A program made the translations under genes and the position numbers. A stretch of DNA of 64,000 nt, taken from positions 248,001-312,000 of the forward strand of contig NZ_JAJOZB010000001.1 of the NCBI RefSeq assembly GCF_023701745.1, in the 5' to 3' direction. The stretch comes from Streptomyces sp. RKAG293 (GTDB lineage Bacteria; Actinomycetota; Actinomycetes; Streptomycetales; Streptomycetaceae). This document shows positions 36,266 to 56,773 of the stretch, one piece after another. Numbering within the stretch: position 1 is the stretch's first letter; each line of letters starts with the position of its first letter. The notes beneath the pieces are model-generated. The model ran no database searches. It saw nothing but the letters and a program-made list of their open reading frames with translations, and had not been told where the DNA came from.

Positions 36266-36734
36266 ACGTACTCCATGGCAACGGGCGGACGCGAAGGAAC
36301 CTGCCGTTTCGCTTAGGCAAGGCTCGGCTAACCATAGAGGTTGATCAGCAAACCGTCTACAACGGTGTAGTCGAACGTGCCCTACCCGCTGTCGACCCGG
36401 CCCCGACCTGCTGGAAAACGTATGATCCGCTGTTCGGCATGCTTGGCACCGGAGATCTGAGGCCCCGGGCGGATGGCACTGAAGGCGACGCGGGGCTGGC
36501 TGCGGCTCACGGCCGGGAGATGCGTCCGGCGGTCGAGTTGGTCGGCCATCTGGCCGAAGAAGAGCGACAGCCGTGTTGGCGGCGTTGTCAACTGAATGGG
36601 CCGCGGTGTGGCCGGGCAGGCTGAGGGCGTGTTCGGCCCAGGGTCGGCTCTCGGTCTCCGGCGCATGGTCACGTAGGCCGCTCCGTGACCACCTGATCTA
36701 CCCCGGGGCTCAGGTCCCGGCCCTGCACGCCTGA
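36266..36734. other. Intergenic region upstream of ZIP gene
   Basis: No gene supported. The part just upstream of the ZIP gene (about 36300-36375) is relatively AT-rich and contains GCTTAGGCAAGGCTCGGCTAACC, a plausible metal-regulator target, though no perfect dyad is visible. Confidence 0.3.
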
Positions 36735-44489: not shown

Positions 44490-45431
44490 TCAGCCGCCCT
44501 TGGCGAGTTCCAGCAATTCGTGCAGGTCCTGGGCGGCCTCCAGCGTGCACAGCGCCGTCGCCGCCAGCACTGCGCCCACACCCAACAGCGCGAGCATCTG
44601 GTTGCGCGGTGGCGGGGCGAGCAGAGCGGCTACACGGCGGGGCACCGGCCCGACAGCGGTCCGTGCGCGGTCGCGGCCGAGGATTCCCATTGCGGCGGCG
44701 GGCAGGCGACGGCGACCCTCGCCGCTCTTGGCCGCCAGGGCGGCCCTGCCCACGGTGCGGGCCACGCGTCGGCGGTCACCGATCACCGTGGCGGCGCGTT
44801 CGTCAGCCCACCGCTCTACCGTGTACGTAACGGCAGTGGCCGCGGGGCGCAGCAGGGGATTGGCGGCGGCGGCCAGTTGGGCGCCGGCGGTGAACAGGTA
44901 GTGGTGTCCGCGTAGATGGGCGCGTTCGTGGGCGAGCAGAACTGCGCGCTCGCCGTCGTCCAGGGCGCTGAGCATGCCGGTGGAAACGACGATGCGGCCG
45001 GGCAGCCCTGGCATGGCGAACGCGTCGGCGGCCGGTTCGTCGAGGACGACCAGTCGGTTCGTGCCGGGGAAGCAAGCCGCCTCCAGGGCCGCGTTGAACA
45101 ACGCCCGCACCCGCCGCCACACCATGCGGGTCGCAGCCGTCACCGCGATGGTCAGCAGTACGCCGGCAAGCAGCCCGACGGCCCACGCGGTCGGGTCATG
45201 GCGTTGCACCACCTGGAGTGAGAATCCGCCCAGGTCCGCGACCGTCGGGATCCGTACGCAGACGGCCAGCGCCAGCAGCCCCAGAACCGTGGTGCTGCCG
45301 ATCGCCAGGACCACCGAGCCGACCGTAAGGATCCAGGTGGCCAGACGGGGCTCCAACCGGTCGGTCAGTGGCCGGGCGGCGATTACGGCCAGGGCGGGGA
45401 AAAGCAACGGCAGATAGACGGCGAGATGCAT
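44490..45431 (-). CDS. M56-family (BlaR1/HtpX-like) membrane metallopeptidase, copy 1
   Basis: A 313-residue protein with three N-terminal helices, a cytoplasmic protease domain with zinc motif LLAHERAHLRGHH (HExxH) and a third ligand candidate in ERWADERAA, then one C-terminal helix (LALLGVGAVLAATALCTLEAA). There is no penicillin-binding sensor domain, unlike BlaR1/MecR1. It probably cleaves, or triggers cleavage of, the BlaI-type repressor encoded just upstream (12-base gap), as in other BlaI/M56 pairs. Signal unknown. Confidence 0.9.
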   Translation of the reverse strand: MHLAVYLPLLFPALAVIAARPLTDRLEPRLATWILTVGSVVLAIGSTTVLGLLALAVCVRIPTVADLGGFSLQVVQRHDPTAWAVGLLAGVLLTIAVTAATRMVWRRVRALFNAALEAACFPGTNRLVVLDEPAADAFAMPGLPGRIVVSTGMLSALDDGERAVLLAHERAHLRGHHYLFTAGAQLAAAANPLLRPAATAVTYTVERWADERAATVIGDRRRVARTVGRAALAAKSGEGRRRLPAAAMGILGRDRARTAVGPVPRRVAALLAPPPRNQMLALLGVGAVLAATALCTLEAAQDLHELLELAKGG

Positions 45432-45443
45432 CCGGGGCGGTCC

Positions 45444-45839
45444 TTACCGGCCGGGGTCCAGTTCGGCGCCGAGCAGGCGGCGCAGCAGCAGCTCGTCAGC
45501 GGCGGAAAGGTCGTCGACGAACCGGGTCAGGACCCTCTCGCGATCCGGTTTGCTCCCCAGAACCTGGTGCATCTGGCGAGCGGCCAGGCCCGGCTCGTCG
45601 GTGACGGGCGTGTAGGCGTAGGCCCGCCCGCGAGGGGTGCGCTCCAGAATGCCCTTGGCGTGCAGTCGGGACAGGATCGTCACCACCGTGCTGTACGACA
45701 GTCCGCCGCCGAGCCGCTCGGCGGCCTGCGCGGGGGTCAGCGCCTCCTCGGCGGCCTGCAGGATCGCCAGAACCTCGGCCTCCAGAGCGCCGTTGGGGCG
45801 CCGCCCGGCCGCCACGGTCGCCTCGCCGTCGTCATTCAT
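45444..45839 (-). CDS. BlaI/MecI-family transcriptional repressor, copy 1
   Basis: A 131-residue winged-helix protein (GALEAEVLAILQAAEEALTPAQAAERLGGGLSYSTVVTILSRLHAKGILERTPRGRAYAYTPV) with a C-terminal dimerisation helix pair (DRERVLTRFVDDLSAADELLLRRLLG). S-Y-S-T-V-V-T-I-L-S-R-L is the recognition helix. GGAAGG precedes ATG 45839. Two BlaI-type dyads lie just upstream, shared with the divergent PAP2 gene, so it should repress itself and that gene. Confidence 0.93.
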   Translation of the reverse strand: MNDDGEATVAAGRRPNGALEAEVLAILQAAEEALTPAQAAERLGGGLSYSTVVTILSRLHAKGILERTPRGRAYAYTPVTDEPGLAARQMHQVLGSKPDRERVLTRFVDDLSAADELLLRRLLGAELDPGR

Positions 45840-45864: not shown

Positions 45865-45897
45865 CTACAGTCGCGTAGTACTTCTACGTGACTGTAG
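45865..45897. promoter_or_regulatory. Tandem BlaI-type operators between BlaI and PAP2 genes
   Basis: Two CTAC-N6-GTAG dyads, CTACAGTCGCGTAG (45865-45878) and CTACGTGACTGTAG (45884-45897), are centred 19 bases apart, so they fall on nearly the same DNA face. They are near mirror images of each other. They lie 26 bases upstream of the repressor gene and 86 bases upstream of the PAP2 gene. Confidence 0.75.
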
Positions 45898-45982
45898 AAG
45901 TCATTGGCACCCCGAGTGTGCCACGCCCTCCCGCGCCTGGCGAGCAGCCCCGGCGCCTGCTCCCCAGCGCAAAGGCACCTCC

Positions 45983-46600
45983 GTGACCGCACCTTCGTTC
46001 CAGGCGCTGGACGGCGCAGCCATCGACGGCGGCTGGTACACCACCATCACCGACTTCGCCCGCGACACCCACTGGCTCAATGCACCGATGCTGGCCTTCA
46101 CCAGCTACGGCGCGTTGCTGTTCGCTGTGGCCCTGCTCGCCGGCTGGTGGATGGCCCGCCGCGCCGACGCCGCCGCGATGGCCGCGTCCCTGGCCGGAGG
46201 GGTCGCTGTCATCCTCGCCTACCTGCTCAATTCCGGCATCAAGGATGTCTTCGCCGAACCACGCCCCTGCCGTGCTCTGCCCCACGATTTCCTCGTCGAA
46301 GCCTGCCCACCCTTGAACGACTACGCCTTCCCGAGCAACCACACCACCGTCGCCTTCGCCGCCGCCACCGCGCTGCTGCTCATCCACCGCCGCCTCGGCG
46401 CACTGGCCCTCGTCCTCGCCGTACTGATGGCCGCCTCCCGTGTCTACGTCGGCGCCCACTACCCCCACGACGTCATCACCGCCGCCCTCATCGGTGCCGC
46501 CATCGCCGTCCCGACTGTGCTCCTCGGCCGCCGCTACGGCGCTCCAGCCGTCGAACGACTTCGCACCAGTCGCCTGCGCCCCGTATTGGCCCGACGATAG
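45983..46600 (+). CDS. PAP2-family phosphatase (undecaprenyl-diphosphatase-like)
   Basis: A 205-residue, about five-helix membrane protein carrying the three PAP2 motifs: KDVFAEPRP (C1), PSNHTT (C2) and SRVYVGAHYPHDV (C3), with catalytic His in C2 and C3. Members such as BcrC dephosphorylate undecaprenyl diphosphate or phosphatidyl lipids at the outer face of the membrane. GTG 45983 start. Divergent from the BlaI repressor and sharing its operators, so expression is likely induced when the M56 protease removes the repressor. Confidence 0.92.
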   Translation: MTAPSFQALDGAAIDGGWYTTITDFARDTHWLNAPMLAFTSYGALLFAVALLAGWWMARRADAAAMAASLAGGVAVILAYLLNSGIKDVFAEPRPCRALPHDFLVEACPPLNDYAFPSNHTTVAFAAATALLLIHRRLGALALVLAVLMAASRVYVGAHYPHDVITAALIGAAIAVPTVLLGRRYGAPAVERLRTSRLRPVLARR

Positions 46601-52061: not shown

Positions 52062-52913
52062 TCAACTCCGTGCTTTGACCGGCACGGCGGTGCGCTGATG
52101 CGCGACGGCCTGGTACGCGACGAGTGCGGCGATGAGAAGGGCCAGGACCAGGCTGACCGGCCCGGTGCCCCAGCCGAGCCCGCTGCGCCGGGCGGGTACA
52201 CCCATCCAGTCGGCGAAGGACGCCCCGAGCGGGCGGGTCAGTACGTAGGCCGCCCAGAAGGCGGCGACCGGGTTGAGCCACCGGAGGCGCCAGGCCAGGG
52301 CGGGTACGGCGATCAGGGCGGTGAACAGGACACCTGAGGAGAGGTAGCCGAAGTGGAGGGTGCCAGCGGTGAGGTCGCCGGTTGCCGTGCCCAGGGCGAA
52401 GGTCGCCAGCACGGTCGCCCAGTAGAACGCTTCGCGGCGCGGGGTACGGATGCTGTGGATGGACAGCGTGCGCTCGCTCACGTACCAGGCCGTCAGAATC
52501 GCCGCGAGGGCCAGTGAGAACACGACGGTGGAGACCGTGTACGGGATACCGACCACCACGTGGGCGACATCGGCGGCCATCGTGCCGAACACACTCACCA
52601 TGACGATCGCCGACCAGTAGAGCCAGGGCGAGTACCGGGTGGCGCGGAATTGAATCACCAGTAGTGCCACCAGCCCGAACAATCCCAGCGCGCCGGCCAC
52701 GACCGGGCCGAGCACTCGTGCCAGGAAGTCCGAGGTGGTCTCGCCCATCCCCGTGGTGAGGACCTTGGTGACCCAGAACAGGGCCGTCACCTCAGGGACC
52801 TTGCTCCAGGCGGCCGCGTACCGGTGGTGCCCCGGCCCGGATGCGGCAGGCCGGGACGGAGCTCCCGCGCCCGTCCCGGTCCTCATCGCGAACCCGTGTC
52901 CGGACTGTTCCAT
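52062..52913 (-). CDS. COG4705-type multipass membrane protein, copy 2
   Basis: A 283-residue protein with about eight helices, clearly paralogous to 27427-28275. Shared landmarks: SKVPEVTALFWVTKVLTTGMGETTSDFL, SERTLSIHSIRTPRREAFYWATVLATFALGTATGDLTA and AAFWAAYVLTRPLGASFADWM. ATG 52913 is a reasonable start; ATG 52886 is possible. No two-component genes adjoin this copy. Its promoter region instead carries a BlaI-type operator shared with the divergent glycosyltransferase gene. Confidence 0.85.
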   Translation of the reverse strand: MEQSGHGFAMRTGTGAGAPSRPAASGPGHHRYAAAWSKVPEVTALFWVTKVLTTGMGETTSDFLARVLGPVVAGALGLFGLVALLVIQFRATRYSPWLYWSAIVMVSVFGTMAADVAHVVVGIPYTVSTVVFSLALAAILTAWYVSERTLSIHSIRTPRREAFYWATVLATFALGTATGDLTAGTLHFGYLSSGVLFTALIAVPALAWRLRWLNPVAAFWAAYVLTRPLGASFADWMGVPARRSGLGWGTGPVSLVLALLIAALVAYQAVAHQRTAVPVKARS

Positions 52914-53001
52914 GAGTACCGCCACTCTCCCGGCGCCTCGCGCCGTATCCAAGTCTCCGCCCGGTCGACTCCCGGCGGACACAAGATGCATTCCCTTAGT
53001 T

Positions 53002-53014
53002 CTACATCATGTAG
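53002..53014. promoter_or_regulatory. BlaI-type operator between COG4705 and glycosyltransferase genes
   Basis: CTACATCATGTAG, a CTAC-N5-GTAG dyad. With its flanks it reads TCTACATCATGTAGTAG, identical outside the central five bases to the site at 55354-55370. It lies between the two divergent starts (52913 and 53177). Confidence 0.72.
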
Positions 53015-55354: not shown

Positions 55355-55367
55355 CTACGTGCTGTAG
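55355..55367. promoter_or_regulatory. BlaI-type operator upstream of second BlaI gene
   Basis: CTACGTGCTGTAG, a CTAC-N5-GTAG dyad; with flanks TCTACGTGCTGTAGTAG (55354-55370). About 100 bases upstream of the repressor start and downstream of the deacetylase stop. Confidence 0.72.
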
Positions 55368-55465: not shown

Positions 55466-55849
55466 GTGGGCGACCAGAAGGACGCGGCAGCCGGGCGGCG
55501 CGCGCCGGGCGAGCTGGAGAGCGAAGTCCTGGCTGCCCTGTGGGCGGTCGGGGAGCCGGTTGCCGCGGGAATCGTGCGCGAGCACGTGACCGGCGATCCC
55601 GCCTACACCACCGTGCTGACCATCCTGTCCCGGCTGCACGACAAGGGACTGGTCACCCGCGAGAAGGCAGGCCGCGGGTATCTGTACTCCCCCGTACGGG
55701 ACGAGGCCGGACACGCCGCGGCGGGGATGCGCGACCTGCTGGAGCACGGCGGGGACCGGGCGGCGGTCCTGGCCCGGTTCGTCTCCGAACTACCTGCCGA
55801 GGACGAGAAGTTGCTGGAGCAACTCCTGCGCGGACACCCGGAGGCGTAG
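55466..55849 (+). CDS. BlaI/MecI-family transcriptional repressor, copy 2
   Basis: A 127-residue winged-helix repressor (GELESEVLAALWAVGEPVAAGIVREHVTGDPAYTTVLTILSRLHDKGLVTREKAGRGYLYSP) with a C-terminal dimerisation part (DRAAVLARFVSELPAEDEKLLEQLL). GTG 55466 follows AAGGAG. Recognition helix A-Y-T-T-V-L-T-I-L-S-R-L is close to copy 1. Followed after 3 bases by an M56 gene, a second complete repressor/protease module. Confidence 0.93.
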   Translation: MGDQKDAAAGRRAPGELESEVLAALWAVGEPVAAGIVREHVTGDPAYTTVLTILSRLHDKGLVTREKAGRGYLYSPVRDEAGHAAAGMRDLLEHGGDRAAVLARFVSELPAEDEKLLEQLLRGHPEA

Positions 55850-55852
55850 ACA

Positions 55853-56773
55853 GTGTGGATCGGCCTGCCGCTGCTGTTCAGCGCGATCCTGGCGCTGGCC
55901 GCACCCTGGACCGGACGCCGGCTGCCTCCCCGAACCGCCGCGTGGTCGCTGACCTCAGCCGCGGTCGTCGCCGCGGGCGCCTGGTTGACGGCACTGGCCA
56001 TGCTGGGCTTCACCCTGATCGGACAGGTCCCCCAAGTAGCCGCCGAAGGCCGGTGGTCGGCGCGAGTCCTGGCCACCGACGCCCCGGTTGACCGTCCGGT
56101 GGCCGCCGCCTGCGCCATCGGCGTCCTGTGCTGCGCGCTGGCGCTGACCGTGACCGCCTGGCGGCAGACACGCATGCTGGTCGACGCCCGCCGCGAATGC
56201 CGCGACCTGGTCGCAGCCGGAGACCTGGCCGTGGTCGACGACCCAGTGCCCACCGCTTTCGCCCTGCCCGGCACTCCCGGCAAGGTAGTGGTGTCCTCCG
56301 GCATGCTGCGCGCCCTCGGTATCGACGAGCGGCGCGCGCTACTGGCACACGAGCGCGCCCATCTGTCCCACCGTCACCATCTCTTCCTCCTCGTCCTCCA
56401 CCTCGCCGCGGCGGCCAATCCGCTGCTGCGGCCCCTCACCCGCGCGGGCGCGTTCACCCTGGAACGCTGGGCCGACGAACAGGCCGGATCCGTCGTCGGA
56501 GACCGGCAACTGGTTGCCCGCGCGGTCGCCCGAGCGGCCCTCGCCGCGAAACGGGCGCCCAGGGCGGCCCTCGCCGCCACCGGAGGGCCCGTGCCCCAAC
56601 GGGTTCGCGCCCTGCTGGCACCGCCAGTACCGGCACGCCGCAACCTGGTCGCAGCCATCACCACCCTGATGGTGCTCTGCTGCACCAGCCTGGCCGTGGC
56701 CGCCCAGGACATGGACGGCCTCTTCGACGCCGCCTCACCCCCGTGCACCACCTCGCACCCGCCCCTCCGCTGA
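55853..56773 (+). CDS. M56-family membrane metallopeptidase, copy 2
   Basis: A 306-residue protein organised like copy 1: N-terminal helices, zinc motif LLAHERAHLSHRHHL (HExxH), ERWADEQAG, and a final helix (LVAAITTLMVLCCTSLAVAA). Again no extracellular sensor domain is present. GTG start 55853. Probably controls the repressor encoded just upstream. Confidence 0.9.
   Translation: MWIGLPLLFSAILALAAPWTGRRLPPRTAAWSLTSAAVVAAGAWLTALAMLGFTLIGQVPQVAAEGRWSARVLATDAPVDRPVAAACAIGVLCCALALTVTAWRQTRMLVDARRECRDLVAAGDLAVVDDPVPTAFALPGTPGKVVVSSGMLRALGIDERRALLAHERAHLSHRHHLFLLVLHLAAAANPLLRPLTRAGAFTLERWADEQAGSVVGDRQLVARAVARAALAAKRAPRAALAATGGPVPQRVRALLAPPVPARRNLVAAITTLMVLCCTSLAVAAQDMDGLFDAASPPCTTSHPPLR

Follow-up and report, generated by a model that had tools for sequence, protein, structure and literature searches.

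What would a pair of closely set BlaI-type dyads control when the gene facing the repressor encodes a PAP2-family phosphatase rather than a beta-lactamase? This question is raised by a 33-bp array in Streptomyces sp. RKAG293 that has a BlaI-M56 operon on one side and a divergently oriented PAP2 gene on the other, within a stretch of 64,000 nucleotides that was analysed as a whole and is referred to here as the window. The features concerned are as follows.

44490 to 45431, minus strand: M56/M48-type membrane metalloprotease, BlaR1-like, 313 aa (Pfam M48 48.9 bits; M56 26.4 bits)
45444 to 45839, minus strand: BlaI/MecI/CopY-family repressor, 131 aa (PF03965 74.3 bits against a cut-off of 22.6)
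45865 to 45878, no strand: N6 dyad 1, CTACAGTCGCGTAG, BlaI-proximal half of the predicted operator array
45884 to 45897, no strand: N6 dyad 2, CTACGTGACTGTAG, PAP2-proximal half of the predicted array, its centre 19 bp from that of dyad 1
45914 to 45923, plus strand: non-coding element GAGTGTGCCA, 15 to 17 bp past the array on the target side, identical in clade loci
45983 to 46600, plus strand: PAP2-family membrane phosphatase, 205 aa, probable undecaprenyl-diphosphate phosphatase (PF01569 91.3 bits against 27.2)
36357 to 36370, no strand: N6 dyad 3, CTACAACGGTGTAG, between genes, ~92 bp upstream of a ZIP transporter gene

The sequence-only reading of this DNA had described two CTAC-N6-GTAG dyads with centres 19 bp apart, and both are present, their half-sites starting at 0, 10, 19 and 29 bp of an imperfectly palindromic 33-mer in which 14 of 16 base pairs match across the centre. 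It had also called the dyads in-phase; the 19-bp spacing is real, but the term is imprecise because 19 bp corresponds to ~1.8 helical turns, making the phase approximate. The extended half-site reads CGTCTACAGT on the outside and GTAGA(C) on the inside, and the array implies an alternative half-site pairing in its middle, GTAG-N5-CTAC, which sequence alone cannot separate from two N6 dyads. Three N6 dyads were observed in the window against a chance expectation of 0.10, the third (at 36357) being absent from the list of the earlier reading. The element GAGTGTGCCA was found to be identical across 12 distinct loci of the window BlaI clade despite variable surroundings.

The gene products flanking the array resemble the components of a bla-type switch. 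The Penicillinase_R domain (PF03965) of the window repressor scores above the curated cut-off, and the sole PDB sequence match of this protein is 2g9w, which we take to be M. tuberculosis Rv1846c. The protease scores above the cut-off for M48 (48.9) and below that for M56 (26.4 against 31), and keeps the zinc motif HExxH...E with H168, E169, H172, E206 and E211 invariant. Its predicted structure (pLDDT 86) is modelled as a multi-helix membrane protein, for which the best fold matches, all weak, are S. aureus BlaR1 (top, E 0.026) and Ste24 proteases. A C-terminal penicillin-binding sensor domain was absent from the 313-aa protein by both domain search and model, and no beta-lactamase or PBP gene is present in the repressor-protease-phosphatase unit, the divergent gene being that for PAP2. 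Both absences argue against a module that responds to cell-wall antibiotics in the manner of bla/mec, with induction by beta-lactams and PAP2 as an accessory resistance factor. Such a module would fit the BlaI and BlaR1-like protease families at the locus, and the M. tuberculosis BlaR, which also lacks the sensor domain, still regulates blaC via BlaI (PMC5473688), but on balance we consider beta-lactam induction improbable.

The PAP2 protein has the family motifs KX6RP, PSxH and SRX5HX3D in the form of KDVFAEPRP, PSNH and SRVYVGAHYPHD, respectively. Among solved structures, those nearest in fold are 5jki, a PAP2 phosphatase from B. subtilis, and 8bm3, the C55-PP phosphatase PgpB of E. coli; PAP2 enzymes can also use other lipids. 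The best NCBIfam models for the protein are undecaprenyl-diphosphatases, but its score of 67.8 does not reach the equivalog cut-off of 250, and we therefore infer a probable undecaprenyl-diphosphatase role from the gene swaps described below and not from family membership.

The array itself was followed through genome-wide scans, which were pattern searches. The exact 33-bp array occurs twice in the RKAG293 genome, with no matches to a reversed control, and 28 of the 35 genus genomes scanned carry the array. When the gap between paired N6 dyads was left free (0 to 30 bp) in these 35 genomes, 38 of 39 pairs had a gap of 5 bp, the lone exception being a short GC-rich direct repeat (G034), and all N6 pairs (35/35) were 19 bp apart at loci fetched by BlaI protein similarity alone. 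Family-wide, 115 of 298 genomes contain the array, the reversed control again giving none, and none of 110 genomes sampled from the rest of the class showed it. BlaI and a target gene flank the array throughout the examined loci. Chance palindromes without a regulatory role would account for the majority of the remaining N6 matches in RKAG293, many of which are intragenic, but for the array a chance origin, to which we give negligible weight, is ruled out by the fixed 19-bp geometry across genus and family together with the absence of control matches. Conservation strongly supports the earlier assignment of the dyads as putative BlaI operators of the divergent repressor/PAP2 pair. A bare N6 dyad is nevertheless an unreliable predictor of sites because most isolated matches in the genome are likely due to chance; CTACAGTNNNGTAG is the better predictor. 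In one genome (G077, L258 1928-1979) three N6 dyads with a 19-bp period separate a BlaI gene from an ABC/FtsX transporter operon.

The genes behind the array point to recycling of the undecaprenyl carrier. A core locus conserved genus-wide, and present in the RKAG293 genome as well (L016), consists of an M56-BlaI unit, the array and a DedA-PAP2 unit. The core DedA protein matches DedA models, with a match to UptA (undecaprenyl phosphate transporter) below the cut-off; COG0586 DedA proteins are putative UndP flippases and some are known to be fused to PAP2 (PMC10127716). Repressors of the window clade face PAP2 in S. fildesensis, S. humicola and S. tropicalis, and UppP in S. odonnellii, S. pseudogriseolus, S. 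cellulosae and a Planotetraspora, while plasmid pFRL5 has PAP2 and UppP together at a window-clade repressor locus. Single N6 sites are located upstream of UppP/BacA genes in other genomes, the encoded proteins scoring above NCBIfam equivalog cut-offs. In the RKAG293 genome, two of the 28 N6 sites outside arrays (C1:8357021 and C1:1174449) precede one of the 15 PAP2/BacA genes, compared with ~0.007 such sites expected if placed at random within 150 bp upstream (P ~ 2e-5). The UppP promoter site of this genome and several UppP loci elsewhere have a third half-site at the 19-bp register, and at some UppP loci CTAT-N6-ATAG substitutes for the usual dyad.

The link to the lipid carrier proposed from the sequence alone thus gains support from the range of genes, DedA-PAP2, PAP2 or UppP/BacA, that the same repressor and array type appear to serve. 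Because window-clade repressors face either PAP2 or the unrelated UppP/BacA, a regulon for undecaprenyl-carrier recycling is probable, and the strongest clue to function is that a single repressor clade is paired with two enzymes that share a reaction but not an ancestry. Arrays of this type also lie in front of genes for an ABC/FtsX transporter (G077 and G059) and an ArsP-type permease (G198), neither of which has an evident role with the lipid carrier; the module is therefore open to other uses and the lipid-carrier reading describes a strong tendency and not a rule. Arrays of the same geometry before such genes, single N6 sites upstream of DUF347 and EfeU genes, and the existence of plasmid copies of the BlaI module would all be compatible with a generic cassette, mobile between assorted envelope, metal-stress and transport genes, in which PAP2 would be a chance partner and the trigger would be membrane or peptidoglycan stress in general. 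However, the core locus is conserved, most members of the window clade face PAP2, DedA or UppP, and, unless the two enzymes act on one substrate, it is difficult to see why UppP, which is unrelated to PAP2, should have replaced it under repressors of one clade; a generic cassette seems to us rather unlikely, if less so than induction by beta-lactams.

Three minor observations were also made. At four UppP loci (L227, L229, L233 and L267) the sequence CTATTCGCGAATAG, an N6 dyad with CTAT half-sites, is contained within a longer perfect palindrome. Immediately 5' of the core DedA start codons (L016 1949 and equivalents; 24 contexts) the sequence CCATTATGGGAG is invariant, and in many cases it takes the form of the palindrome CCCATTATGGG. 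Lastly, N5 or N6 dyads occur near EfeU-type iron permease genes at L178, L236 and L237, which suggests that BlaI may control iron uptake in some genomes.

We favour, with a probability of about 0.72, a carrier-recycling switch in which the 33 bp would serve as a double operator for the adjacent BlaI, the locus combining bla/mec-like control with a carrier-recycling output as an accessory copy of a family regulon. The gene families, gene order and array conservation were observed here; the remaining elements of this model, namely binding, cleavage, inducer and enzyme substrate, are inferred. The four half-sites (GTCTAC type) would most likely accommodate two repressor dimers side by side, in a position to cover the predicted divergent promoters of blaI-M56 and PAP2, and bound repressor would block both units. 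The membrane M56 protease would sense an envelope signal and inactivate BlaI by cleavage, as modelled on BlaR1/BlaI, and the loss of BlaI would derepress PAP2, BlaI and M56 together. The output enzyme would probably dephosphorylate undecaprenyl diphosphate, taking the place of a beta-lactamase, and the window locus would be an accessory member of a widespread Streptomyces-family regulon with DedA, PAP2 and UppP/BacA as outputs.

Comparable divergons are known from the bla and mec systems, in which a BlaI-family repressor shares an operon with an M56 protease and several operators occupy the stretch between these genes and a divergent effector (PMC3305447, PMC9834060). The window module resembles BlaI-BlaR1 and MecI-MecR1 of S. 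aureus and B. licheniformis in its repressor-protease operon, its divergent effector and its several, here predicted, intergenic operators. It differs in having no penicillin sensor and in its effector, which is PAP2 (DedA or UppP elsewhere) and not a beta-lactamase or PBP2a. The operators also differ, window-type arrays consisting of a pair of N6 dyads with an unvarying 19-bp spacing. Operators of S. aureus have the form CTAC-N4-GTAG. The module effectors belong to the families of known carrier-recycling enzymes (UppP/BacA, BcrC/PgpB-type PAP2 and DedA/UptA).

Another precedent, for the sensing arm, is M. tuberculosis, in which BlaI (Rv1846c) likewise adjoins a BlaR (Rv1845c) without an extracellular sensor (PMC5473688), an actinobacterial repressor beside a sensor-less partner as in the window. 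The targets reported for it in that paper comprise blaC together with genes for cytochrome bd and ATP synthase, unlike the PAP2 or UppP neighbours of the present module. For the operator, a precedent is C. thermocellum BlaI_0696, for which a GTCTAT half-site was confirmed by EMSA and whose targets carry four half-sites (PMC8457756). BlaI as the binder of the window array is supported by the resemblance of its GTCTAC half-site to GTCTAT, and the arrangement of two inverted repeats with four half-sites is shared with BlaI_0696/BlaI_1845. However, BlaI_0696 sites have N5 spacing and the regulon comprises BlaR1 and hypothetical genes, with no lipid-carrier genes reported.

The individual parts of the module are therefore known, including a BlaI repressor, a sensor-less BlaR1-like protease (as in M. 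tuberculosis, PMC5473688) and a PAP2 phosphatase. The literature searched described neither their combination nor an N6 array with the fixed 19-bp spacing nor a carrier-recycling regulon, and it contained no paper on BlaI control of DedA, PAP2 or UppP, although its coverage of subscription journals was incomplete. The occurrence of the same arrangement before other carrier-recycling genes in related Streptomyces suggests that a switch known from antibiotic resistance may have been reused to control carrier recycling. UppP, PAP2 and DedA take part in the essential recycling of the peptidoglycan lipid carrier, a process whose cellular control is poorly known, and a dedicated repressor-protease circuit, if true, would open a way into that control in the genus that is the chief producer of antibiotics. 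Such a circuit would also show what sensor-less BlaR proteins, including that of M. tuberculosis, may respond to.

A second BlaI module lies in the same window and raises the question of whether the two repressors are kept apart.

52062 to 52991, minus strand: DUF347 membrane protein, with relatives in other genomes preceded by N6 sites
53002 to 53014, no strand: N5 dyad CTACATCATGTAG, between the DUF347 gene and a glycosyltransferase-deacetylase-BlaI2-M56 operon
55355 to 55367, no strand: N5 dyad CTACGTGCTGTAG, upstream of BlaI2
55466 to 55849, plus strand: second BlaI-family repressor (BlaI2), N5 clade (PF03965 81.7 bits; tree)
55853 to 56773, plus strand: second M56/M48-type protease (domain search; zinc-protease motif check)

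The dyads at 53002 and 55355 agree with the sequence-only reading, which had noted a 5-base spacer at two further loci and had proposed that the two BlaI proteins could discriminate sites by spacer length, each module having its own operators. The same split is found in related genomes, where perfect dyads at BlaI loci of the genus comprise 33 N5, 93 N6, one N4 and four N7, most N8 matches at these loci being N5 sites extended by TAG. In a tree of 93 BlaI proteins, 60 rows with a clear autoregulatory dyad were labelled (48 N6 and 12 N5), requiring a minimum of two changes, and an N7 spacer is found in one two-row clade. Spacer class thus correlates with repressor clade, but exceptions occur in both clades: a close ortholog of BlaI2 in an S. 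fildesensis-type genome (G007, L118) has N6, DUF347 promoters near other BlaI genes carry N6 (L063 and L128), L098 has N6, and L102 is a core array with one N5 dyad. A strict spacer rule is rejected because of these natural exceptions. The claim that each module has its own operators is not established, DUF347 promoters being N6 in many genomes and N5 in the window. The bases flanking the dyads also differ by class, N5 sites favouring T(A/T)CTACA and N6 sites GTCTACAGT, so that spacer and flank are confounded.

Spacer length as a true specificity code, with N5- and N6-clade BlaI proteins binding only their own spacer class and the window modules insulated from each other, would agree with the two changes in 60 labelled rows and with a recognition helix that is largely conserved between clades. 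Within it, protein position 53 differs, and most clade-specific residues lie elsewhere, at positions 36-47, 75-102 and 120, clusters that may fit a difference in dimer geometry. It would also agree with an N5-clade locus (G013, L129) that has its own PAP2 and DedA genes, each preceded by an N5 dyad. Set against the exceptions at L118, L063, L128 and L102 and the accompanying change in flanks, however, we consider such a code possible but somewhat doubtful; the N5/N6 split appears real as a correlation and is unproven as a mechanism of discrimination. Under the favoured carrier-recycling switch, BlaI2 of the other clade would use mostly N5 operators with different flanks, which may limit cross-talk. 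A broader and more tentative proposal, to which we give slightly less than even odds, is that the sensor-less BlaI-M56 pair monitors the undecaprenyl-carrier cycle and runs a DedA/PAP2/UppP regulon, with paralogous circuits kept separate by the layout of their operators, both the spacer (N5, N6 or N7) and the flanking bases contributing. Single genomes hold several spacer classes side by side and so offer a natural test of operator partition by spacer among related repressors.

Two further observations concern dyads outside the PAP2 locus. The DUF347 gene of the window starts 11 bp from an N5 dyad, and across the genus N6 sites repeatedly lie next to DUF347 genes (L142, L152-L154, L159, L168, L170, L172, L173 and L175). 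The third N6 dyad of the window, at 36357-36370, resembles the N6 site CTACAAGGGTGTAG of the BlaI2 ortholog in G007.
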